DNA of 25,986 bases from a virus. The stretch spans positions 1 through 25,986 of the IMG/VR virus record IMGVR_UViG_3300044617_000210; one strand, given 5' to 3'. A program made the translations under genes and the position numbers. Positions 10,841 through 25,986 of the stretch are shown here, in pieces. Each line of letters starts with the position of its first letter. The first letter of the stretch is position 1. Below the pieces are notes generated by a model. It was not told the DNA's origin. It saw only the letters and a program-made list of their open reading frames with translations, and made no database searches.

Positions 10841-11776
10841 CTATGCGATTGAGGAAGAAGACTCAATGCGGTACAGAGCAGGCTCGCGGTAGCGGGCCCA
10901 TCCCTGCAGTGAGTACCAGCCGATCGGGCGGAAACGCATCAGGCGGTCCACAACCGGGCCAATCACCACGCCGGGCTCAACAGCGGTCGCCTCAGCGAGC
11001 GCCTGCTGGCCAGCAACAATGGTGCGGTACACCTTGATGCTAGAAGCACCATCGTTCGCCGTGAACGCACGCGGGGTTTCCACGAAGTACGCACCGTGCA
11101 TGACACCGACGACACCGCCAAGGATGTTGCCGACGTTGCCCTCGGTGTACTTACGGATGTCGTCGAAACTTCCGCTCCCGGTTTCTGCCCTAAGGTCATG
11201 GGTCACTTCGGGATGGCAATATGCGGCGTATAGTTGCCCCTCGCGAGGAACAGCCTTGTTCGCACGCAACTTTGCAACAACCTTACGGATGTCCGCAGCA
11301 GCGATGGTGTCCTCCGCAGCAACAGAGACCGTGGAGGTCGGGGTGGACGCGCCACCCGTGCCGTACTCCACGTTGGTGCCGCCGACAAGAACCGTGTTGA
11401 CCACGGCATCCAGCGAGTCAGCCATATTGAACGCCACAATGTTCGCAACTGCCGGGTCGATGTCGCTGAAAGCGAACTCACCCAACTTGCGAGTCTGCAG
11501 CACGGTGTTGCCGTACTCATTGAGCGTCACCGACACCGTGCTGATGTCGGAAAGCGCAACGGCATCCGGATCAGTGGTTTCAGTGAGAGTGGACGTGGCC
11601 GTGGCCAGGTCGTTGTAGATGGAGAACACGACCGACGATCCAGGCATAGCCTGCTGGACAGGGCGCTTGTCCGCGAGCGACCGCATAAGCGGCTGCGAAC
11701 GCAGAGCGAACTCCACGTAACGGTCATACGCTGCCTTTACAAGACCAGCAACAGCAGTTGTACTTGTGTAAGCCAC
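10841..11776 (-). CDS. Major capsid protein (N4gp56-like, HK97 fold expected)
   Basis: A 311-aa protein. Signature-like segments are LMRSLADKRPVQQAMPGSSV near residue 30, STLTETTDPDAVALSDI near 60, the strand VSVTLNEYGNTVLQTRKLGE near 80-98, and a C-terminal GWYSLQGWARYREPALYRI. I recognise the order as the N4gp56 family of major capsid proteins. About 415 such subunits would form a T=7 shell if the usual geometry holds. The gene has the best ribosome site in the window (AGGAGGTGA at 11783-11791, complement), fitting high expression. The scaffold gene lies upstream and a hairpin terminator downstream. Confidence 0.88.
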   Translation of the reverse strand: MAYTSTTAVAGLVKAAYDRYVEFALRSQPLMRSLADKRPVQQAMPGSSVVFSIYNDLATATSTLTETTDPDAVALSDISTVSVTLNEYGNTVLQTRKLGEFAFSDIDPAVANIVAFNMADSLDAVVNTVLVGGTNVEYGTGGASTPTSTVSVAAEDTIAAADIRKVVAKLRANKAVPREGQLYAAYCHPEVTHDLRAETGSGSFDDIRKYTEGNVGNILGGVVGVMHGAYFVETPRAFTANDGASSIKVYRTIVAGQQALAEATAVEPGVVIGPVVDRLMRFRPIGWYSLQGWARYREPALYRIESSSSIA

Positions 11777-11823: not shown

Positions 11824-12324
11824 CTAGAAGGCGTCAGGACCCTGAGTGGTTCCGAAGATCACCTTGTTCAACTCCTCCGGAGTGCGGGCACTACGGATGA
11901 GTGCAGCCACCTGATCGGAGTCCCCGTCAAATGGCTGCCCCGTGGACTGCATTTGGCTAATCTGCGTCAGCCCCGAAAGATCAGGGCCACCCGCCTCACC
12001 ATCAGAATCCACAGGCGCAGGAGCACCGCCGAAGATTTCGGCGTTCTCCTCAACCCAAGCCGACACATCCTCCTCAGAGGTCATGTCCTCGGGAATGAAC
12101 TTTGCGATCTTCGGGCTCAAGCCCTTAGCCGCGAGAACATCCTTGACGCTACGTTCACGAGTCTGCTGAGCCAGCCCAGTAAGCCGCTCAGTCAACTCCT
12201 TGATCTGCTTCTCCTTCGCACGGTTCTGCTTACGCAGTTCCCGAAGGACGTTGTTATCGGAGCCGCGAGCGTCCCCGCCGAACTCGTCGTCGTAATCGTC
12301 GTAGTCGTCCTCAATGCCTGACAT
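11824..12324 (-). CDS. Capsid scaffold protein
   Basis: A 166-aa, strongly acidic protein. Its N-terminus is MSGIEDDYDDYDDEFGG, a coiled coil follows at about residues 25-60 (LRELRKQNRAKEKQIKELTE), then VKDVLAAKGLSPKIAKFIPE, and a C-terminal helix near RSARTPEELNKVI. The composition, the coiled coil and the position directly before the major capsid gene are those of phage scaffolding proteins, which guide procapsid assembly and then leave. ATG at 12324 is preceded by GGGAG. No protease gene is seen nearby, so exit rather than cleavage is likely. Confidence 0.85.
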   Translation of the reverse strand: MSGIEDDYDDYDDEFGGDARGSDNNVLRELRKQNRAKEKQIKELTERLTGLAQQTRERSVKDVLAAKGLSPKIAKFIPEDMTSEEDVSAWVEENAEIFGGAPAPVDSDGEAGGPDLSGLTQISQMQSTGQPFDGDSDQVAALIRSARTPEELNKVIFGTTQGPDAF

Positions 12325-14893: not shown

Positions 14894-15776
14894 TAAACAT
14901 GCCCCTCTTCTGCAAGTACTGCATCATCAAGTCAGCAGACTGTGAGCCAATCGTGTACTCGTTGTAATCCTTAGAATCACGCAGCGACTCCTGCAAGGCT
15001 GCAGTGCGGCCCTCAGCACCAAGGCCACCCTCCACCACCTGCACAGGGTTGCCCTTGTCGTCCACGTCCATGCGCACCGTCTGCGGACTGGACATTTCCA
15101 GTTCAGTCAGCGACTTGTAGTACGTCTTGAACTCACGATCCGTGACAGTGCGGCCAAGCATCTGCAGGCTCAACTGGTTGATCACCGCGCGAGCATCCTC
15201 GGGGTTCGTCAAGTTCACAGACCCGACAGAACCACCACCACCGAAGCCACCGCCACCGCCATACGAGTAGGACCCACTCCCACCCGACTGATCATCACCA
15301 AGGCTGACCCTGCCATCGGCAAGATCAGCCAGCAGAAGATCCGTGGGGGAGTAGTTCCTGCCAAAGCCGGTTTCGTATGCGGAGCGAGCCGCATACTCGT
15401 CAAAGACGGAGTTCACGTTAGACATGCCACCGCGCTCCTGCGCAACCGCATTGAACAGATCCCACTGCCAGCGCGGCAACGTGTTGACAAGATTGCCGCC
15501 TTGAGCCGTCGTGACCGGCACATAGTGGTAATACTGGCTGTAGTGCGTGTACATGCCAGGGCGAGCAGCGCCCTTAGGCCATGTCTGCAGGTTCTCCACA
15601 ATGGGTGTGCCCATGGCCACCTGGCCACGGTTAGCCGCTGCACTAGCCGTTGAACTGGGAGAATAGCCACCAGGCACATTCGGGTACGTGGAGACTGTCT
15701 CGCGGTTCTGTGCCGCTTCCTTGCGCTTCTGATACTCCGACCTGTCAGCCGAAGTAGGAACGTCGCCCCTAGCCAC
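14886..15776 (-). CDS. Putative virion protein (296 aa)
   Basis: An N-terminal polar half (about 1-120) contains many Tyr/Pro/Gln residues (TWPKGAARPGMYTHYSQYYHY). A glycine/serine linker follows near 165-190 (SGGSGSYSYGGGGGFGGGG). The C-terminal helical domain has AVINQLSLQMLGRTVTDREF and KDYNEYTIGSQSADLMMQYL. The frame extends to an ATG at 15791, but GTG at 15776 with GGAGGG five bases upstream is better and overlaps the previous stop by 8 bases. The bipartite layout with a flexible linker suggests an adaptor inside the particle. Function unknown. Confidence 0.6.
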   Translation of the reverse strand: MARGDVPTSADRSEYQKRKEAAQNRETVSTYPNVPGGYSPSSTASAAANRGQVAMGTPIVENLQTWPKGAARPGMYTHYSQYYHYVPVTTAQGGNLVNTLPRWQWDLFNAVAQERGGMSNVNSVFDEYAARSAYETGFGRNYSPTDLLLADLADGRVSLGDDQSGGSGSYSYGGGGGFGGGGSVGSVNLTNPEDARAVINQLSLQMLGRTVTDREFKTYYKSLTELEMSSPQTVRMDVDDKGNPVQVVEGGLGAEGRTAALQESLRDSKDYNEYTIGSQSADLMMQYLQKRGMFSG

Positions 15777-18700
15777 CGAAGCCCTCCACATCCCAGTTCT
15801 TCGACAGCGCCTTCGTCAACGTGTAGACGATGGTGCGGGCCGAATCCTCATCCACTACCTCAAGACCGGCAAGCCACGACGACACCGTGGCATCCCACGC
15901 TTCCTTGATCAGCGGTGACTCCTCAGCGAAATCCATGCTGTAATCAGTGCGCGCCCGGTTCATGTCATTCATGGCGTCAAGGTATGACTCAATCAGGCTC
16001 ATCGTTTCCTGAGCCTTACCGTTGCCGCGCGTAGCCAATTCACGGCCAGCCGTCACAATCTGATTAGCCTCGTCAATCCAGTCATCCCGGTCCTTCTGCT
16101 CGCGCAGATTCAAGCGCGTTTCAAGCCCCGAGAACTGGGTGACGAGCGCCCGCTTTGTGTCCTGCCAGGCAGTCTCAGCCAACGCATACTGCTCGTTGAT
16201 AGAGCCGTCAGGGTTGTACTTGGCGACACCGGCAGTGTCGGCCTCAAAGTCAGACTTGCTCAGAAGATACTGCTGGTAGGCGTACTGCGTGACAAGTTCA
16301 GTCCCGTACTGCTCAAGATCCTTGAACTCCGATGCATTGAACATCTGCATCGCCTTGTACGACTTGTACGACTCTTCGCCCGTGTTCGGGGCGAACACCG
16401 TCACACCGTTCGGCACCGTGTCCCACAGGTCACGGTTCTGTCGAATGTAATCGACATTCCCCGACAGGGGCTCCACGAAGCCGTACTCGGAACCCTTGCG
16501 TCGCGTCACCATGAACGCACCCGAGTTCGGGTTGGCCGCAGTCCACGAAATGTAGGCGTCCTCCCACGTCCTGCCGTTATCCGTGGACGCCGTGATGGCG
16601 TCCCGCAGGGCAGGAACCAGGGACTCCCAGCCAGCCTCACGGGCAGCAATCGTGAGATTGTCGTCCATGTACTGCGGCGAAGCCGGAGCCATAGTTCCGA
16701 AGATCAGCGACAGTAACGAAACTTGAATCGTGTGCCGGTCAAGATCCGCAAGGAACTTGCTGGCATTGTCACCCGTCACCCACTCTTCGGCAGTGGGTGC
16801 AAGACCGGCAGCAGCCATCAACATAAATGTCTTCATGGCAATCTTGTTGCCAAACGTGCCAGGCGGCTGACCGCCATACAGGGTGCCGCCCAGTGTGGCC
16901 AACTTCTTGAAGTTGGGGGGAAGTGCCGAGTACAGACTGGACGCGAACTCTCCGCCTAGCCCATCGTATGCCGACTCCACTGTGGTGTCAGCCGCGATAT
17001 CACCGAACAGGTTGGACTCAATCTGCTTGGCCGTGTCCTCGGACACCTGAGCGAACTCAGGAAGGTTCAAGAACTCAGTGAACATCGGCAAGCGGCGAAT
17101 GAGAGGCTGCAGGGACACTGCAGCCCACGGGCTTGACAGTGTGGGAATCCACTGGTTCGGGTCAGCCGAAGGGCTGATCCACTGCACGTTGCCACCGAAA
17201 GCGACCGGGGCTTGCGCGAACTTCGCATCCACGCCGATAGCAGCCAGGTGCGTCAATGCCGCACGGCTGAACGGGTACATGAAGTACGAGTTGCCGTACT
17301 GGTCATTGTTCACGAACCCGAAGTCCTGGCTGGCCTGCCACGCGAGGGTGGCCTTCCAGTAGGCAATCGGATCGTTCTTGCCCACACGGATTAGGCGTCT
17401 ACCGAAGTCCTCTACGGCGCGGTAGTAGCGGGCAATATTGCGCACACTCCACGCGAGTTGCGTGCGCGTCGCCGGATTGTCCACATACGCCATTGTCAGG
17501 TTGTAGGCACGCTCAGCCGCCAGGTCCGTAATCATCCGGTCGGCCTGGGCCTCACCGAAAATCTTGGCGTACTTGAGGCGCAGCGGCTCCAACTGGTAGG
17601 CGGCATCAAGGTAGTTGCCGTACCACAGGGGCTCACGGGTCATGCGGGCCAGCGAGCGGCCCATCGTTTCCCACGCCCAGTTCGTGAACCGCTCATACCC
17701 GCCACGAGTGGCAGGAAGTAGCGCAGGCTCACCCCGGTACACAAGGATCGACTCAGGTGCATCGAACGTGCCATCCATGAAGTCCATGTCGTGCACGACA
17801 GACTTCTGCTCAGCGTCATCCCAAATACGGAAGTACGCCCCGCCCTTATCGTCCTCGGTGCGCAGCGCCTTCCACAGCGACTCATTCCACTGGCCCCTGC
17901 GGGTAGTGAAAGTGGAAGCCATATCCGTGAGCAGGTCTTCCACGAACTTGAGTTCACCGTCTGTGGCGATCTTGCGGAACCGGGATGCGAACATAGGCCA
18001 GTCCTTGCCACGCCTCGCCTCAGCCAGCACCTCTTCCACGATCTCACGCATAGCAAGACCATTAGATGCACCAGCAGCGTTGTACGCCTCCCAGAAGCGG
18101 GGCAAGCGTTCAAGGGCAGCCTGACCAAGCCGACCGTTACCGACGATGAACTGCAAATGCTGCATCATCGCTCGCGCCTGATTCTCATTCAGACGCCCGC
18201 CGACACGCTCAGTCGTGTATCCGGCATCGAAGAAGATGCGCCGGAAAACCTCACCCTCAATGATGGTGTAGTCACCCATGTCATCAACGGCAGGGAACGT
18301 TCCGTCCGCAAGGTGCCGTGAAGTTTCGGCAGCATTGTCGCGGTAGATCGTGCCGTACTCAGACTTGAGGAGGCGTTCAGTGGCAGCCATGGCTTGCTGC
18401 TGACGTGGCGACAGTTCCGGAATATCCGCACCTCGGCGCAGACGAACAGGGATACCGCGCAGTTCCTTGTCCACGACCAGCATCAACTTGTTCCGAAGAA
18501 TGGCCTTGACCTGCAGGTCAGCAGCAGCCTCACGGCCACCCTCAGCAGCGAGCAGGCGCTCCTGCTTCGACGTGGTAGGCACGAGCCACTGCGAGAACCG
18601 GGCAGCCATATTGTCGTTGACGCGACCGCTCACCGCATCGCGTGACACGCGATCCGAAAGCCGCACAAGCGAAGTGCGAACGAAGCCGAGTTTCTGGTTG

Positions 18701-21700
18701 GCTCCGACCTTGTTGCTCTTCTCAAGATGCTGCAGCACATTAGCGGCACGCTTGAGCCGATCCTCAGCAACCCGCAGATCACGCTTGTCGATCTCACCGT
18801 TATCAAACTTCAAGCGAGCCGCATCAAGTTCCTCGGCAGCCTTCTTGCGATCCAGTGTCGCTGCACGCAGGCGCATGTCGTCACGAGCCGAAGCCTCACG
18901 AACCGTCTGGCTCAGTTTCCGGCCACGGGCAAAGTTGCCGACAGTGCCGCCAGTGAGCGCATACAGGCCCACATCCTCAACACCGTTACGCAACTGGAAG
19001 CGAGGCCCACCCAGGGTGCCCAGCACCCAGGCGTCCACGATGAGGGATGACACGTTGTTGCTGAACAGCAGCGCGTTGAGCATGGACTTGCGGGCCGTGT
19101 AACGATCTAGTGCGGCAAAGTTCGGCATCCATGCCACCGGACTTGTCTGCCCGATGTACTGCGCTGACGACAGTTCCCCACCCGCGTGCATACTGGGGGA
19201 CACGTAGGTGCGCAGTGCCCCACCTGGCTGACGGGCTTCCTTCTCAAGCGTGCGGGCAATAGTGGACACCGACTCCACAGGCGGGATGTCCTCACCAGCG
19301 GCCTTGGCTGCCTTAGCGGCTGCCTGCTGCTGGGCGTGAATGTCGTTAGCGGCCTTCTCAATGTCACGCATGACACCGCCGTGCCGGGCCACACTGAATG
19401 GTGCATGCAACTCACGGGAAGCAATACCCGTGACACGCTCAAGAACCTCGGCCTCCACCTCGGGAGCCACAAGGTGCATGCCATTAGCGCGCAGAGAACT
19501 GCGCACAATACCCGTGTACGCCACCATGCGAGCGTTCTCACTGGCACCGATCCAGAAGTCCTTGAACAGTGTGGCTGCAGCATGGTCGATGCCAGCCCAA
19601 CGCATGATCTGATACACCTTGTCCGCATCAGAAGCGTCAGCCGTCACGATGCCGAAACGTGAGTCAGGGAGCGTGGCACCTAGGCGACGCCAGCGATCCA
19701 CCTTCGCCACGACAGCCTCACTGAACGTGAGGTCGCCCCGTCCGAAGTACCAGCCACGGCGGCGATAGCCTTTGCGATCAGTGCCCAAGGCGGACGTTAG
19801 GCGCTCCCGGCTGCCGTAGGCGGTGACGAAGCGGTCAAGGAACCGGGCAACAGCAGTGCGCTGCCCACCGGAATCCATGGCCACGAAGTCACTCAGGCGT
19901 GCACCCACAAGGTCTGCGATGTCCTCGCTTCCCAAAGCCGTGAACAGCGCCTCGGTGCGCTCATCAGCGTTCATGGTGCGCCACTCAGGCACCACGTCAT
20001 CAAGCAGTTTCTCCATGCGGGCCACGCCGGGGCCGCCACGAGACATCACTGAACTGCCCAGGATTTTCCCCGACAGGGAGGCGAACGCCTCCGATGTGCG
20101 AGACATATGGGGCATCATGAGGGTGCGCTTCGGCCCCTGCGCAGCCTTCTGCATGCCTTCCGCACGCGCGGCATCCCACACGCGCTCAGGGTTGGGACGG
20201 GCAGCGCGAGCGGCCCGAGTTGCCTCCTGTCGCGCCTGCGCTCCGTACTGGCTCAGGAACTCAGCGCCCCGCTTGGACGGGTCAATAAATGGGAAGTTCA
20301 CGGGCTGGCCCTTGGCCAACTTCTCCGCAGTGTCAAGATCGTCGTAGAAGCGGGCCCAATCGTCAGCCGTGTAGAGTTTCCACTTCCTGCCCAGTTGAGC
20401 GAGGCCAGCGGAACCGTATAGGGCTTCACGCTTGATAAAGCGATTCAGCCGACTCTGAGCGTTCTTTTGCGCGGCCAGATTGGTGCCTTCGCGGACATCA
20501 TCCACAGCCTTGAGGGCCGCACCGAAACTGTCATACCAGCGGCGCACAGCCTTATCCCCACGGATAGCCGTCGCAACACTGCCACCGAATTGGTTAGCGT
20601 TTGCCGCCCAACGTGCAGCCTGCAGGCCCTTGACGATCGTGCCGCCGTACAGCAGCGGGTCCATGACGAACCACGACGATACGTTCGCCACGTCGCGTGT
20701 CGTGGAAAAGGCGAGGTTCTGCAGGTCGTTGTCAGGGTCCGGCTCAAGGCCAAACGTCTGCGCATACAAGTTGCCCCAGTTGCCCTGATCCAACGCAGCA
20801 ACCTCAACGAACAGGCTCGCGGCTGTGCGGTCACCGCCCGTGTCCGTGCCGTTGATCATCTGGTTGATCAACGCCTGCGCGTTTGGGTCGGACTCGTGAA
20901 GTCGCAGAAAGTTCTGCATGGCGTTCGGGTCTTCCGACTGCGTGGCCATGTAGAAGTCAACAGCAAGATCCACCGCGAAGTCACCGTACTCGGTGCGCAG
21001 CCCACTGAGGCCCTGCTGATTCAGTGCACCCGGTGCGGCACTGTCCCAAGCCTGTCGAAGCAGACCGAGCACTCCGCCCTCTTGCTCAGACCGAGGCGCA
21101 GCCGTCGTGTCCAGCAGTCCCGTGTCACCTTCTACCGCAGCGAACGGACTAACCGTGCGCAGCAGAATGTTTCCCGCACGTGACGCTTGAACGGAATACT
21201 GAAGCGGCACCATTAGTGCGTTCAGTATCGAATTGAAGCCCGTCATCAGGAGGTTCTCCTCCTCGCCCTCCACGGGCGCGGCAGAAGCAGCCTGAGCACC
21301 AACGCTCTCACCACGCACCGTGTCGGGTGTACCACCGCGAGTACCGGCAGCGCCACGAGCATTGGCGGCCTGCTCAGCGGCAGCGGCATGCTGCTTGCGC
21401 TCCTCGTCCACCAATGCAGCGACAAGCACACGCTGACGCGGGGGAAGGACTGAAACGATTTGCAGAGCCTTGTACTGCAGGCCCATCGTCAACAGTTCCG
21501 CAACCGTCTGCGACGTGCGCTTCGCGTAAAAGACTTCGGTGGCGTTAGCCACATCGCCCGGCTTCAAACCCTCTTCGGCAAGAGCCGACAGGGCACCAGG
21601 CGCATTATTGGTCAGCCATGCCACCTGCTCCCAGTAACCCTGCGGGGCGGCAAGGCCACCCCAGTTCGGGTAGCGGCCCGGAGTGGGGGAGTCATAGTCA

Positions 21701-22182
21701 GCCGACTGCGACTCCGCATCAGCACGCGACTCACCGGAGTAGTACGCCTTCTCCGTGGCCGACAACTGATCCGGCACGTACCCGCCGTCAGCGGAACGTG
21801 TGCCGTTCAAGAGTCCTTGCAGGAACTCGGCCTGTCGCTCCGCTGAATCAGCCAGCGACAAGCCACGAGCACCAAAGGGACGAAGCATGTTTGCGGCACG
21901 CCGAGCCTCAGTAATGCGCTGCTCAAGGCGATCCGCCGTAGACATATGCACCGTTCCCGGCGCGTACAACATGGGGTTCTGCGTGACCGGACGGTACCGG
22001 GCAGGACCCATCGGGATCGGGGCCGTCTGCATGAACACAGGGTCCATGGATGCAGTGGGGAACTCCATCGTGGAGGTCTGCTGGATGCGGCCCACCACAC
22101 CAAGGTTCGATGCGCCAGTCACATACGCAGGAGGATTCTTGCTCTCCTGATTCGCTCGCTCTTTGCGAGTGTATTCAGCCAC
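15769..22182 (-). CDS. Giant virion-associated / ejection protein (2137 aa)
   Basis: By far the largest gene here (6.4 kb). Visible features: a Pro/Gln-rich N-terminus; Ala-rich helical stretches; a probable coiled coil near residues 1095-1165 (RKKAAEELDAARLKFDNGEI); a hydrophobic/aromatic segment near 1625-1680 (NSYFMYPFSRAALTHLAAIG); and helical C-terminal repeats. There is no signal peptide, no regular tape-measure periodicity and no convincing polymerase or lysozyme motif. It lies among putative internal proteins in a phage without a visible long-tail module. I therefore infer a head-packaged ejection protein, analogous in role to T7 gp16 or other giant internal proteins. The GTG start shares one base with the upstream stop (TAGTG). 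An enzyme domain too divergent to see is possible. Confidence 0.6.
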   Translation of the reverse strand: MAEYTRKERANQESKNPPAYVTGASNLGVVGRIQQTSTMEFPTASMDPVFMQTAPIPMGPARYRPVTQNPMLYAPGTVHMSTADRLEQRITEARRAANMLRPFGARGLSLADSAERQAEFLQGLLNGTRSADGGYVPDQLSATEKAYYSGESRADAESQSADYDSPTPGRYPNWGGLAAPQGYWEQVAWLTNNAPGALSALAEEGLKPGDVANATEVFYAKRTSQTVAELLTMGLQYKALQIVSVLPPRQRVLVAALVDEERKQHAAAAEQAANARGAAGTRGGTPDTVRGESVGAQAASAAPVEGEEENLLMTGFNSILNALMVPLQYSVQASRAGNILLRTVSPFAAVEGDTGLLDTTAAPRSEQEGGVLGLLRQAWDSAAPGALNQQGLSGLRTEYGDFAVDLAVDFYMATQSEDPNAMQNFLRLHESDPNAQALINQMINGTDTGGDRTAASLFVEVAALDQGNWGNLYAQTFGLEPDPDNDLQNLAFSTTRDVANVSSWFVMDPLLYGGTIVKGLQAARWAANANQFGGSVATAIRGDKAVRRWYDSFGAALKAVDDVREGTNLAAQKNAQSRLNRFIKREALYGSAGLAQLGRKWKLYTADDWARFYDDLDTAEKLAKGQPVNFPFIDPSKRGAEFLSQYGAQARQEATRAARAARPNPERVWDAARAEGMQKAAQGPKRTLMMPHMSRTSEAFASLSGKILGSSVMSRGGPGVARMEKLLDDVVPEWRTMNADERTEALFTALGSEDIADLVGARLSDFVAMDSGGQRTAVARFLDRFVTAYGSRERLTSALGTDRKGYRRRGWYFGRGDLTFSEAVVAKVDRWRRLGATLPDSRFGIVTADASDADKVYQIMRWAGIDHAAATLFKDFWIGASENARMVAYTGIVRSSLRANGMHLVAPEVEAEVLERVTGIASRELHAPFSVARHGGVMRDIEKAANDIHAQQQAAAKAAKAAGEDIPPVESVSTIARTLEKEARQPGGALRTYVSPSMHAGGELSSAQYIGQTSPVAWMPNFAALDRYTARKSMLNALLFSNNVSSLIVDAWVLGTLGGPRFQLRNGVEDVGLYALTGGTVGNFARGRKLSQTVREASARDDMRLRAATLDRKKAAEELDAARLKFDNGEIDKRDLRVAEDRLKRAANVLQHLEKSNKVGANQKLGFVRTSLVRLSDRVSRDAVSGRVNDNMAARFSQWLVPTTSKQERLLAAEGGREAAADLQVKAILRNKLMLVVDKELRGIPVRLRRGADIPELSPRQQQAMAATERLLKSEYGTIYRDNAAETSRHLADGTFPAVDDMGDYTIIEGEVFRRIFFDAGYTTERVGGRLNENQARAMMQHLQFIVGNGRLGQAALERLPRFWEAYNAAGASNGLAMREIVEEVLAEARRGKDWPMFASRFRKIATDGELKFVEDLLTDMASTFTTRRGQWNESLWKALRTEDDKGGAYFRIWDDAEQKSVVHDMDFMDGTFDAPESILVYRGEPALLPATRGGYERFTNWAWETMGRSLARMTREPLWYGNYLDAAYQLEPLRLKYAKIFGEAQADRMITDLAAERAYNLTMAYVDNPATRTQLAWSVRNIARYYRAVEDFGRRLIRVGKNDPIAYWKATLAWQASQDFGFVNNDQYGNSYFMYPFSRAALTHLAAIGVDAKFAQAPVAFGGNVQWISPSADPNQWIPTLSSPWAAVSLQPLIRRLPMFTEFLNLPEFAQVSEDTAKQIESNLFGDIAADTTVESAYDGLGGEFASSLYSALPPNFKKLATLGGTLYGGQPPGTFGNKIAMKTFMLMAAAGLAPTAEEWVTGDNASKFLADLDRHTIQVSLLSLIFGTMAPASPQYMDDNLTIAAREAGWESLVPALRDAITASTDNGRTWEDAYISWTAANPNSGAFMVTRRKGSEYGFVEPLSGNVDYIRQNRDLWDTVPNGVTVFAPNTGEESYKSYKAMQMFNASEFKDLEQYGTELVTQYAYQQYLLSKSDFEADTAGVAKYNPDGSINEQYALAETAWQDTKRALVTQFSGLETRLNLREQKDRDDWIDEANQIVTAGRELATRGNGKAQETMSLIESYLDAMNDMNRARTDYSMDFAEESPLIKEAWDATVSSWLAGLEVVDEDSARTIVYTLTKALSKNWDVEGFGG

Positions 22183-22613
22183 TACAGACCCCGCTGCTGC
22201 AGAATCAGCGCCAGGGTTTCAAACTCGCCCGTAGTGTCTCGCGCGGCCAGGCGCATAAGGACGTTACTCGGGCGCTCACCGCCCTGACCAAGTGAAGGGC
22301 CAGGACCCGGCCCAAGTACCGCCCCTGACGTGACCGGCTCCTCCGGTCGCTGCGTGGGGGAGAACAGCGGCGTCGCCTGCTCCTCCACCATGCGAGGCTG
22401 CGATTGACGTGCACGTCGTACACCCGCTGCAGCGTTGTCTGTCTCTGCCATAGGCGCTGCGGTTTGCATGTCATAGAAATCCTGCCCGTCCCCATACGGC
22501 ATGCCGGAGGCGTACCGTGCGGGCTGACCGTCAGTGCGCTGGGACAAAGCACCCGGCCCACTCACCGGGGCCGGGTTACTGGGGGTGCGCATCCCACCAT
22601 GACCATTAGCCAT
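22182..22613 (-). CDS. Conserved phage protein (RTPSNPAPVSGPGALS family)
   Basis: A 143-aa Pro/Gly-rich protein beginning MANGHGGMRTPSNPAPVSGP. It continues SQRTDGQPARY, DFYDMQTAAPMAE and SPTQRPEEPVTSGAVLGPGP, with a C-terminal helix (RLAARDTTGEFETLALILQQ). I recognise this family from actinobacteriophage structural operons, where it sits near the portal and large virion genes, but know of no experimental function. The frame reaches a TTG at 22631; ATG at 22613 is chosen for its AGGGGAG site and for the family's MANGHGG start. Likely a mostly disordered assembly or packaging accessory. Confidence 0.75.
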   Translation of the reverse strand: MANGHGGMRTPSNPAPVSGPGALSQRTDGQPARYASGMPYGDGQDFYDMQTAAPMAETDNAAAGVRRARQSQPRMVEEQATPLFSPTQRPEEPVTSGAVLGPGPGPSLGQGGERPSNVLMRLAARDTTGEFETLALILQQRGL

Positions 22614-22627
22614 GCGTTTGGCTCCCC

Positions 22628-22858
22628 TCAATCAGATGCTTCTTCTACCTCTTCGGACTCCGACTCAAACTCCTCATCGTCCTCATCAGTCGTGAGGACG
22701 TAATCGGAAATGTCGGAGAGTGCCTGCTTGAACATGGCACCCGCTTGCTTACCCATGTCGTTCAGCACATCCGGGTAGTAGGCCACGTTCTCCACGTGTA
22801 GTGAAACCATCGTTTCAGCCCACCGGATCTGCAACGCAATATCTCCACGCTGACTCAC
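22628..22858 (-). CDS. Small helical protein with acidic tail
   Basis: A 76-aa protein. The first 55 residues are predicted helical (SQRGDIALQIRWAETMVSLH, then VLNDMGKQAGAMFKQAL) and the last 20 are almost all acidic (TTDEDDEEFESESEEVEEAS). GGAGG lies five bases before the GTG start at 22858. It could partner the adjacent basic proteins. I do not recognise a characterised family. Confidence 0.65.
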   Translation of the reverse strand: MSQRGDIALQIRWAETMVSLHVENVAYYPDVLNDMGKQAGAMFKQALSDISDYVLTTDEDDEEFESESEEVEEASD

Positions 22859-22889: not shown

Positions 22890-23036
22890 TCAGTGCGATC
22901 CCTTACCGGAACCCTTAGTGCCACCGGGCTGATGACCAAGGCGAAGGTCACCATGCTTCGGGGCAGGTGCCTTCTTGTCCATCAAAGGCTCCTGCGTGTG
23001 CGGCTTGCCGTGCGTTCCCTTATTGGGCTGAGGCAT
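22890..23036 (-). CDS. 48-aa basic His/Gly/Lys-rich protein
   Basis: An uninterrupted ORF begins MPQPNKGTHGKPHTQEPLMD and ends GGTKGSGKGSH. GGGAG precedes the ATG at 23036. It fills the gap between the 81-aa and 76-aa genes. It is basic, with several histidines and no hydrophobic core, so it is probably disordered and may bind DNA or a virion partner. No family is assigned. Confidence 0.6.
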   Translation of the reverse strand: MPQPNKGTHGKPHTQEPLMDKKAPAPKHGDLRLGHQPGGTKGSGKGSH

Positions 23037-23045
23037 TGTTTCTCC

Positions 23046-23291
23046 CTATACCTTGCGCTTCTTCTTGCCTGACTGTCCTGGTGTGTAACTCATGGAGTAA
23101 CCGCCAGGCTTCGACTTCTTTGGACCCTCTGCGCCCTTCTTTGCGGCAGCGGTTCGCTTCCGAGCGGCCTTCTCTTCGACCACATCCCTGGCGTCAAGTA
23201 TTCTGCGATACCGCTGACGAGTTCGGGCGCGCTCTGGCGGGAACCTCAGGTCAGCCAAGTTTCTTGGATCTCCCGGCTTCGCTGCTGGCAT
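23046..23291 (-). CDS. 81-aa basic protein with EGPK motif
   Basis: This protein starts MPAAKPGDPRNLADLRFPPE and has an arginine-rich helix (RARTRQRYRRILDARDVVEE). It then carries KKGAEGPKKSKPGGYSMSY and a KKKRKV tail. The EGPKKS element recurs in two neighbouring small genes. The ATG at 23291 follows the 88-aa gene by one base. The charge suggests nucleic-acid binding; function is not known. Confidence 0.65.
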   Translation of the reverse strand: MPAAKPGDPRNLADLRFPPERARTRQRYRRILDARDVVEEKAARKRTAAAKKGAEGPKKSKPGGYSMSYTPGQSGKKKRKV

Positions 23292-23292
23292 G

Positions 23293-23559
23293 TCACCACT
23301 TCACCTTGTCTGCCCAATAGGCTGCGCTCATCTTGCCTTTAGCAATATTGCTTGCGTGCCGAGCCTTGAACGACGCCTGACGCTTCGTAGGCTGCTTGTC
23401 ACCAGTAACGCCCTGCTGGCCAAACCGGATCGTCTTCACCTTGTCACCGTCTTTCGCAACGACAACGTGACTCTTGGTGGGGTGGCTGGGTGTGCGCTTC
23501 GGCTTGTTGTAGCCGTCCACACCGGCCCGCTCAAGGCGGGGATCTTTCTTACTTGCCAC
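23293..23559 (-). CDS. Conserved 88-aa protein (IRFGQQG ... AAYWADKVKW)
   Basis: The sequence holds SHVVVAKDGDKVKTIRFGQQ, ASFKARHASNIAKGKMSAAY and a terminal WADKVKW. I recall this arrangement (a short beta sheet reading V.K.IRFG, then RRxSFxARH, then sA.YW...KW) from small proteins in many unrelated phages, including marine T4-like ones. I am not aware of a proven function and do not assign a Pfam number. It is basic. The GTG start at 23559 overlaps the upstream 59-aa gene by 11 bases. Confidence 0.78.
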   Translation of the reverse strand: MASKKDPRLERAGVDGYNKPKRTPSHPTKSHVVVAKDGDKVKTIRFGQQGVTGDKQPTKRQASFKARHASNIAKGKMSAAYWADKVKW

Positions 23560-23728
23560 GCTTCTTCACAGGCTTCGGCTTAGGGCCACCCTGACCAGGA
23601 CGAGGACGAGTCGTAGGCTTTGGCTTGGCAACCATCTGACCCTTCTTCTTGGTCGGATCAGTTGGGGTCCTGATGAAACCGGGACGCGACGGGTTCAACT
23701 TCTCACCGTTCTTCTTCATTCCAGGCAT
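23549..23728 (-). CDS. 59-aa Lys/Pro-rich protein
   Basis: This ORF starts MPGMKKNGEKLNPSRPGFIR and continues TDPTKKKGQ. It ends in a proline/lysine-rich tail (PKPTTRPRPGQGGPKPKPVK, then KRGK). The ATG shares one base with the preceding stop (TGATG at 23726-23730). It is strongly basic and probably disordered. It is part of the run of small basic genes; no family is recognised. Confidence 0.6.
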   Translation of the reverse strand: MPGMKKNGEKLNPSRPGFIRTPTDPTKKKGQMVAKPKPTTRPRPGQGGPKPKPVKKRGK

Positions 23729-23907
23729 CAGCGAGCCTTCTTCTGGGCGGGCTTATTCATGGCAACACCACGACCACCAGCCTTGCCCTCAACCGGACCC
23801 TTCACGGAACGCTTCGGACCCTCAGCGCCCTGCTTGGCGGCAGCCTTCTTGGCAGCAGCCTTACCGGCAGGCGTGTACGGGAACTTCTTGCCATCAACGT
23901 TAGGCAC
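23728..23907 (-). CDS. 59-aa Lys/Ala-rich protein with EGPK motif
   Basis: The GTG start at 23907 shares one base with the preceding TAG. The product begins MPNVDGKKFPYTPAGKAAAK, has KQGAEGPKRSVKGPVEGKAG in the middle and ends NKPAQKKAR. The YTPAGKAAAKKAA stretch is reminiscent of histone-tail-like or nucleoid-associated basic tails. It is probably a DNA-interacting virion or packaging accessory, inferred from composition only. Confidence 0.62.
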   Translation of the reverse strand: MPNVDGKKFPYTPAGKAAAKKAAAKQGAEGPKRSVKGPVEGKAGGRGVAMNKPAQKKAR

Positions 23908-24251
23908 TACTTGCTCCGCTTCTTAGGTGTCGCCTTCTTAGCGACAGGAACCGACTTCTTCGGACCCTCAGATCCCTTAGTCGTAGCGAACGACACCGCC
24001 GCGCCAGCAGCAGCACCGGCCACAATGCCGCCAGCAACCTTGCGCTTCGTTGCGGCCTTCGCGGCAGCCACCCGACGCTCATAGGCAGCCTTACCGGCAG
24101 CGACACGGTTCTCGTTCTTAGTGATGTACGTGCGGGCTGCAGCCGACTGCTTGTTCTGCGCCTTCGTCGGGCCACCGCCACGAGCCGAACCACTACCCGA
24201 ACCGCCAGCGCCGCCACCTACGCGACCGCTACTGCTACCCTTTGCGGGCAT
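23907..24251 (-). CDS. 114-aa basic protein with hydrophobic segment and EGPK motif
   Basis: Residues about 1-30 are Gly/Ser-rich. A basic helix follows (KNENRVAAGKAAYERRVAAA), then a small-residue hydrophobic stretch near 72-88 (VAGGIVAGAAAGAAVSF) that could be a membrane-active helix. The end is GSEGPKKSVPVAKK and a KKRSK tail. ATG at 24251 has TAGGAG upstream and lies eight bases after the portal stop. Charge plus a glycine-zipper-like segment suggests a membrane- or DNA-contacting virion component; unproven. Confidence 0.62.
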   Translation of the reverse strand: MPAKGSSSGRVGGGAGGSGSGSARGGGPTKAQNKQSAAARTYITKNENRVAAGKAAYERRVAAAKAATKRKVAGGIVAGAAAGAAVSFATTKGSEGPKKSVPVAKKATPKKRSK

Positions 24252-24259
24252 AACAACTC

Positions 24260-25986
24260 CTATGCGGGTATGCGCCGGGAAACACCGGCAGTCAGATTGG
24301 GTTCGCCACGACCCGTAAGGCTGGCCATAAGCATCTGCAAATCAGGGCGACCACCAGGGGCCATACCCGCCTGGCCAGGGGCAACACCACGAAGTAACCC
24401 AGTTGCCTCGTTGATGCCCTCAAGACCACCGCCCGCCCCAGGCTGTACCTCACCGGGCGCGCCCATCATCGTTTCGGCTGCGCCACCGGGAGCCTCACCT
24501 GGGGCAAGCGGCTGCTCCTCGGGAGCAAACGCCTTCGCAACCACCTCTTCGATGGAGCGTCCACGTTGTCTTCCGAGGATGATTTCTGACAAGCGCGCCA
24601 GGATCTCACCTGGGTCTTGTCCGTTCTGTGCGAGGACCGGGATTGCCTGCGCGTAACCGGCAACAGCCTGCTTGAGCGCGTCCCGCATTTCCTCAATATC
24701 GACCTTCGACTCTTCTTCGCTCGCGTCAAGCGCGAACGGCATCTGGCGTCGAAGAAAGTCTCTGCTAATCAGTTTGTCGCCACGAGCCTGCAAACCAAAC
24801 ACGAGTGCACGGTTCGGGTCCAGGCCAGCCATCAGACCGTACTGCACGTCCACCGTGTAGTCGCCCTTGATGTCCCTGTCGGGGCGGTACTTGATCTCAT
24901 ACGGGGTGCCGTCCGCGTTACCGCGCACCGACTTCTCCACCGAACCGTAAATCTTCTCGTCCACGAACAGGGCCTTGCGCACAAGGTTCGTGAACCCGAC
25001 CGCGAACATGGCCTGAGCCGTGCGAATCTGCGAATCGAACCCGGACATGAGTGCCTGCACACCGCGACCCGTCACAATGGACGCATCGACGTTGCCGCCA
25101 CGAGCCTCCGGATACCGGGAACCCTGCCGCAACTCCATGTCCAGCACGGACTGCTGCGCAAACGCCGACTGCGGAACCTCAATCGGGACACGGCGTACCT
25201 GCTGGCCGTTCGCGGTACGGATCACCGCATCAGGGCCCAAAGCAAGTTCCTGCGCATCGGGTGGCATCACGATAGGTGCCTGCACCGACTTCTGTGCCGC
25301 TTCCAGGCTCAGCAGCGCGAAACGTGCCTTCGCCACCTGCACCGCGAGCACATCATCGAACTGGCCGTGCGGCTCATCGTCCACACCGGGACGCTGAATC
25401 CACTCACATAGCACCTCACCCACCGGGTTCGGTACACGAGTCAGCACCAGGCCCTCGTTCGACGGCATGAACAGCAAGTCCTGATAGCGGTCGTGATATC
25501 GCACGACCTCCACCAGATCACCGCCACCACCACGAGAGGCACCCATGATCGCGGACTCAAGTTCGGGGTAGGCGTACACGAGTTCATCGCGTGTCTTGTA
25601 GAACGAGAAGAACGCCGCAGCGAGGCGACCCCACCTGTCAAACATGGGGTACGCGCCGATAGCGTCAAGGAAACGGATGCGCGGCATCTTCTCGTCCGCG
25701 TCCACTTCCACCATCGCAGGCACGAAACCATACGTGACGTAACGGTCAGCAGCGGTGTACATCTGCCGCTGCACATCCGAGTAGGCGATGTAGCCGTTGA
25801 CGATCTTGCCGCGCTTCTCCGCAAACTCCCGGGCACGGTCACTGACCGCCTTGGACGATGCACAGTTGAACGACGGTAGCGGGGCCATCACCTCGGCCAG
25901 ATCACGTGCCGCCACATCCACCATGTTCGCCACGATGCCCCGATCAAACGGGCCCTCGGGGAACAAGTCCGGGTACACGTCACGCA
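24260..25986 (-). CDS. Portal protein, 5' end cut by the window edge
   Basis: At least 572 aa. The frame remains open past the GTG at 25978 to the last base, so the true start may lie outside. Portal-like segments include EKRGKIVNGYIAYSDVQRQM, TAADRYVTYGFVPAMVEVD, PRIRFLDAIGAYPMFDRWGR, and a central region with SRYPEARGGNVDASIVTGRG, VQALMSGFDSQIRTAQAMFA. A long C-terminal helix follows (DIEEMRDALKQAVAGYAQAI). The end is Gly/Pro-rich. The order matches phage portals: mixed wing, stem and clip, then a helical crown. It should form the dodecameric DNA gate. The terminase gene is probably just beyond the right edge. Confidence 0.82.
   Translation of the reverse strand, partial: RDVYPDLFPEGPFDRGIVANMVDVAARDLAEVMAPLPSFNCASSKAVSDRAREFAEKRGKIVNGYIAYSDVQRQMYTAADRYVTYGFVPAMVEVDADEKMPRIRFLDAIGAYPMFDRWGRLAAAFFSFYKTRDELVYAYPELESAIMGASRGGGGDLVEVVRYHDRYQDLLFMPSNEGLVLTRVPNPVGEVLCEWIQRPGVDDEPHGQFDDVLAVQVAKARFALLSLEAAQKSVQAPIVMPPDAQELALGPDAVIRTANGQQVRRVPIEVPQSAFAQQSVLDMELRQGSRYPEARGGNVDASIVTGRGVQALMSGFDSQIRTAQAMFAVGFTNLVRKALFVDEKIYGSVEKSVRGNADGTPYEIKYRPDRDIKGDYTVDVQYGLMAGLDPNRALVFGLQARGDKLISRDFLRRQMPFALDASEEESKVDIEEMRDALKQAVAGYAQAIPVLAQNGQDPGEILARLSEIILGRQRGRSIEEVVAKAFAPEEQPLAPGEAPGGAAETMMGAPGEVQPGAGGGLEGINEATGLLRGVAPGQAGMAPGGRPDLQMLMASLTGRGEPNLTAGVSRRIPA

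Follow-up and report, generated by a model that had tools for sequence, protein, structure and literature searches.

T4-like phages provide the best-known examples of variable internal proteins that carry short targeting tags, and we know of no motif like the one described below in the basic DNA-binding proteins of chlorella viruses. The internal proteins of T4 are small, basic, late and varied, they are joined only by a shared peptide of about ten residues, and their repertoire differs between related phages; the 10-residue capsid-targeting sequence (CTS) suffices, and the proteins that form this basic and diverse set are partly counter-defence proteins (PMC9026906, PMC3012670). In the chlorella viruses, which differ from the present case in being a eukaryotic virus system, basic virion proteins have been proposed to neutralise packaged DNA (PMC3281028). 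The stretch of DNA analysed here (hereafter, the window) is a virus record of 25,986 bases. Its portal protein is 40-44% identical, over most of its length, to those of Beephvirinae (Immanuel3, Dennebes, Kumquat), which also share the order portal, small genes, 140-aa protein and giant protein. However, the Beephvirinae have no basic island, no 88-aa protein and no copy of the motif described below. We infer the host of the window phage only from the kinship of its portal with those of Streptomyces phages and prophages. The likeness to IPI-IPIII of T4 is that of sequence-diverse small basic late proteins with a short shared peptide. The T4 CTS is N-terminal, has another sequence and is removed by gp21, whereas the window motif is C-terminal or internal; because position, sequence and processing differ, membership of the T4 CTS is not claimed.

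On the (-) strand, the window reads portal, six basic genes, genes of an acidic 76-aa, a 149-aa and a 2137-aa protein, further unassigned genes, scaffold (11824-12324), major capsid and later genes. The initial annotation described six consecutive basic genes of 114, 59, 59, 88, 81 and 48 aa after the portal, three of them sharing a motif. All six are found there, with charges of +5 to +21 and K+R contents of 17-31%, and the motif, G[AS]EGPK[KR]S, is present in the 114-aa, first 59-aa and 81-aa proteins. The portal gene (phrog_104; 24260..25984), whose 5' end is truncated by the window, forms one border of the island, and every island feature that follows is likewise on the (-) strand. The 114-aa protein (23907..24251, charge +21) carries motif copy 1, KGSEGPKKSVP (23946..23978), close to its C-terminus, with a Gly/Ala-rich hydrophobic stretch, GIVAGAAAGAAVSF, ahead of it. 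The first 59-aa protein (23728..23907, charge +12, GTG start), the start of which is similar to phrog_33179, has copy 2, QGAEGPKRSVK (23800..23832). The second 59-aa protein (23549..23728, charge +16) and the 88-aa protein (23293..23559, charge +14, GTG start, phrog_7595) are motif-free. The 81-aa protein (23046..23291, charge +16) has copy 3, KGAEGPKKSKP (23106..23138), where the motif KGAEGPKKSKPGGY directly follows a long helix predicted with low confidence. The last protein, of 48 aa (22890..23036, charge +5), is motif-free and is the sole basic gene retained here in most relatives. The six ORFs are packed stop-to-start, with overlaps of 1, 1 and 11 nt and gaps of 1 to 9 nt. The opposite border is the gene of the acidic 76-aa protein (22628..22858, (-), charge -16), followed by those of a 149-aa protein (phrog_8200; 22182..22631, (-)), which is conserved within the lineage and has NPAPVSGPG close to its start, and of the 2137-aa protein (15769-22182, (-)). 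The island had been placed between the portal and capsid-associated genes; this is correct on the portal side but not on the other, as the major capsid gene (10841-11776, (-)) is about 12 kb from the six-gene cluster. Among relatives, the acidic protein that closes the island is of unlike types, for example an AETMVSLHVEN type and a TPWFNSDTVATS type, both strongly acidic.

The consensus of the motif is G-[AS]-E-G-P-K-[KR]-S-x-P (GAEGPKKSxP), about ten residues usually located in a short basic C-terminal tail and often followed by K/R-rich residues up to the C-terminus. In 26 aligned copies, not all of which are independent, the positions are G (21/26), A/S, E, G, P, K, K/R (24/26), S (21/26), any residue and P (23/26). 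The first G, at position -1, is outside the patterns used for scanning and is nevertheless conserved, also in 19 of the 24 unique copies. With the motif masked, its carriers formed 17 BLASTP groups, and alignments supported two merges, which leaves about 15 families. This number is an upper limit, because A/K-rich proteins hide kinship. The first residues in L247 are like those of the 114-aa family, in which TKGSEGPKKSVPVAKK is the longest invariant block. In the 81-aa family, whose other members are 45-54% identical to the window's protein, the best conserved stretch is G-x-EGPK-x-S-x-PGGY. Two copies are found within one protein in three loci (L020, L197, L242), and two or three proteins of the same phage carry the motif in the window, L133, L135 and L250, as would be expected of a tag. 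The carriers scanned had no Pfam or NCBIfam match, including nucleoid-associated and histone-like families of the HU, H-NS and Lsr2 types. Five strings of the motif were absent from the text, as distinct from the figures and supplementary files, of the literature searched, where we also found neither a function in work on the motif strings, DUF5754, Beephvirinae or cobavirus virion proteomics, nor virion proteomics or binding data for motif-bearing phages.

A 7-mer shared among the six proteins (taking K=R and A=S) was obtained in 1 of 20,000 residue shuffles. Shuffling yields an exact 4-mer common to three of the six more often (7.8%), owing to AAAK-like runs. Relatives were collected via the portal or via the 88-aa protein, so that the pattern was also tested outside the sequences from which it had been derived. 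In 117 distinct portal loci, 12 of the 291 basic ORFs called after the portal contain [AS]EGPK[KR], distributed over 8 loci, versus a mean of 0.010 in 300 shuffles. Nine of these carriers are in loci reached without the motif; the other three, in L135 and L136, were obtained through the motif scan. The set is not fully blind, because some loci of the first motif scan were already included. Eight letter permutations of the pattern, as well as its E-to-D and E-to-Q versions, had no occurrence in the portal loci. There, in a reduced alphabet and A/K runs aside, AEGPKK was the most widely shared six-letter word.

We also scanned 2.9 million viral contigs with three DNA back-translations of the motif, which gave 10, 15 and 18 stretches on a total of 33 contigs. 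The match lies inside a small basic ORF in 23 of the 33, and 21 of those 23 encode a relative of the window's portal. The remaining two, L238 and L239, have one ORF in common; in L238, an unrelated phage with a P22-like portal, the major capsid gene is followed by two genes and then by this motif-bearing ORF. A codon-permuted control of equal information gave 6 stretches, none of them in a portal relative. Motif families using other codons may have been missed, because the codons allowed for E, K and S were limited in these scans. The search in small ORFs of other phages that the initial annotation had proposed finds the motif again, on about 15 small basic families and mostly beside portals.

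The degenerate codon positions of the motif all vary, except that the invariant Lys is almost always AAG, and copies of one locus differ at synonymous sites. Since synonymous codons vary, even within one locus, it is the peptide rather than the DNA that is kept, and recent local duplication is unlikely because copies within a locus differ in codons. The distance from the motif to the end of the gene ranges from 13 to more than 100 codons. The motif had been interpreted as a duplicated short functional tail. A shared functional element is upheld by its occurrence on about 15 families and its retention in diverged orthologs; simple local duplication is not, in view of the synonymous differences, of flanks that are not detectably alike and of the presence of the motif in many other phages. 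The DNA core CGGACCCTC, also pointed out earlier, is indeed present at the motifs (twice exactly, once with one mismatch). However, it is weak evidence alone, because near-matches across the window number 17 vs 8.8 expected, and as an independent signal we rejected it as not convincing. The motif is real and portable, occurs mostly in small basic island genes and is kept at the peptide level.

The dN/dS values against relatives were 0.17-0.27 for the 114- and 81-aa genes, 0.04-0.07 for the 88-aa gene and 0.10-0.26 for the portal gene. The most diverged 81-aa pair gave 0.53, an uncorrected ratio with saturated synonymous sites. The low values for the cluster genes indicate selection on real proteins. 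Where orthologs exist, the 114-, 81-, 88- and 48-aa genes are under purifying selection comparable to or stronger than that of the portal.

The relatives are nearly all metagenomic and unannotated, with gene starts picked by a simple score. In most of the 117 loci, about 200-600 bases separate the portal from the 149-aa gene, with zero or one basic gene between them. Because most relatives have neither island nor motif, the motif is an accessory trait, and on a portal tree of 106 rows it requires at least 6 changes. An expanded island of 1.0-2.1 kb is present in 19 loci with both ends visible, and the 88-aa gene is found in all 19; L242 is an exception, with a motif-bearing island and no 88-aa gene. 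Gene content turns over rapidly. In L002, whose portal is 100% identical to that of the window, most of two of the six genes is gone and a short lysine-rich end is found instead. In L003 (portal 91% identical), the 81-aa gene and one 59-aa gene are missing. Both relatives lack the second 59-aa gene and the motif part of the first, so that the counterparts of the first 59-aa gene are motif-free there, whereas orthologs of the 114- and 81-aa genes keep the motif. Absence from orthologous clusters, named in the initial annotation as counter-evidence, thus applies to the first 59-aa gene but not to the 114- and 81-aa genes. L001:4690-5075 and L002:2680-2835 lie in otherwise nearly identical DNA but differ by the loss or replacement of a cassette of some 230 bases, which marks a recombination hot spot inside the island. 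The island itself is a mosaic insert in the head-gene operon, and phages whose portals are identical differ in its gene content. One motif-free island gene matched DUF6496. When 84,980 species genomes were searched for prophages with a portal profile, the only matches were two Streptomyces contigs and one binned contig, and none of the three has the island. At the island position, L242 encodes an 814-aa protein (L242:5429-7873) with a net charge of +132, the end of which resembles the motif-bearing gene just upstream; this suggests a possible duplication and fusion. Another relative has, inserted within its basic island, a 167-aa neutral ORF (L045:6272-6775) that is by eye endonuclease-like.

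The 88-aa protein matches the profile of phrog_7595 over its full length (residues 2-88, E 5.5e-37). It is near-invariant: viral contigs contain at least 598 stretches, the best 80 of which are 74-93% identical, and homologs 53-80% identical are found in Celeribacter, Roseobacter, cyanophage, HMO-2011 and Vibrio phages. The gene occurs at most once per genome searched and in differing places; in other phages of the lineage and in unrelated families it is sited elsewhere, often among small basic genes. The protein carries no EGPK motif, and its match to DUF5754 is weak (14.3 bits vs a cut-off of 27.4), with weak matches in 36 of 75 members. An AlphaFold2 model from 68 sequences was too poor to assign a fold (pLDDT 51), and searches of PDB sequences gave only matches with E of 0.18 or worse. 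The homolog in Roseobacter phage SIO1 (L131:5001-5213; NC_002519 24065-24277) is not annotated as a gene.

Our leading reading, to which we give somewhat less than an even chance, is that in these podovirus-like phages, relatives of the Streptomyces Beephvirinae, the motif may tag variable basic proteins for docking or for targeting to the head. The mosaic island supplies small basic late proteins, differing from phage to phage, from the head-gene operon. The motif would dock the tagged proteins to one conserved partner in head assembly (a procapsid, scaffold or portal-proximal protein), and candidates for this partner are the scaffold, the acidic protein, the 149-aa protein and the portal. 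Docking would place a variety of basic proteins inside the head or on it, in a position to contact packaged DNA or to be delivered to the host. By analogy, the motif would act like the T4 capsid-targeting sequence on diverse basic internal proteins. As most relatives have neither island nor motif, this partner would need to work without the latter too. A more specific form, which we put forward with marked reservation at about one chance in three, is that GAEGPKKSxP may be a previously undescribed cargo tag that loads rapidly changing basic proteins into the heads of small podovirus-like phages independently of a maturation protease, with the genes exchanged through an island set aside for them, of which the 88-aa protein is the marker. 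If the docking reading is true, a second, unrelated tag would exist in small phages that are actinobacterial by portal kinship, which would suggest that 'tag plus variable cargo' is a general phage strategy. Candidate injected phage proteins could then be found from sequence alone, and a new peptide would be available to load proteins into phage heads.

The main rival holds that the tail binds nucleic acid: the basic proteins would themselves attach to DNA or RNA, of the phage or of the host, with charge neutralisation or nucleoid effects as the result, and GAEGPKKSxPRKK would need no protein partner, serving as a turn or as a contact to DNA. The K+R content of the six window proteins, the usual position of the motif within a K/R-rich tail and the DNA contacts of lysines in T4 internal proteins (PMC3012670) are all in line with it. 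Nevertheless, an invariant glutamate, never D or Q in the portal set, and a G-P pair are odd for a pure DNA-contact motif, most other basic proteins of the same islands are motif-free, and one paper sees no evidence for a large contribution of basic proteins to the neutralisation of phage DNA, holding that phages do not depend on them for this (PMC3281028). We consider this explanation unlikely. Less probable still is a structural helix-ending linker, spread among small genes by illegitimate recombination and with little specific function. The low-confidence model of the 81-aa protein consists of a single helix up to residue 53, where the G of the motif lies, and then a tail, and the island is recombination-prone (L001 vs L002). 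A neutral linker of this kind would hardly have retained E, G, P, K, S and P where synonymous sites are saturated and orthologs have diverged at about half of their residues, nor would its codons be expected to differ between copies of one locus. That the motif is cut by a prohead protease (..E|G..), as happens in T4-like heads, appears very improbable. The T4-type maturation protease cleaves internal basic proteins after Glu, but a search for Peptidase_S78 came up empty in 20 related records, although it succeeded in control genomes, the scaffold is a separate gene, and conservation reaches S and P, well beyond the supposed cut; an S77 model matched none of its control genomes, so its search carries no weight here. 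Finally, although A/K-rich tails share short words by chance (any 4-mer, as above) and GAGG is similar to a Shine-Dalgarno core, a low-complexity coincidence or a ribosome-binding-site-like DNA signal (GAGGG/GAAGG) forcing the peptide is refuted by an approximately 1000-fold enrichment over shuffles, the outcome of the motif scans, the varying codons with residues conserved on both sides and the variable distance to the gene end.

Two further features of the window lie outside the island. The 2137-aa protein, which has no PHROG match (E up to 0.01) and no convincing Pfam match, is perhaps a virion or ejection protein. At the window end far from the portal, a tRNA-Leu(GAG) gene (16-102, (-)) adjoins a tyrosine integrase gene (261-1406, (+)), and this arrangement may represent the attachment site of a temperate phage.
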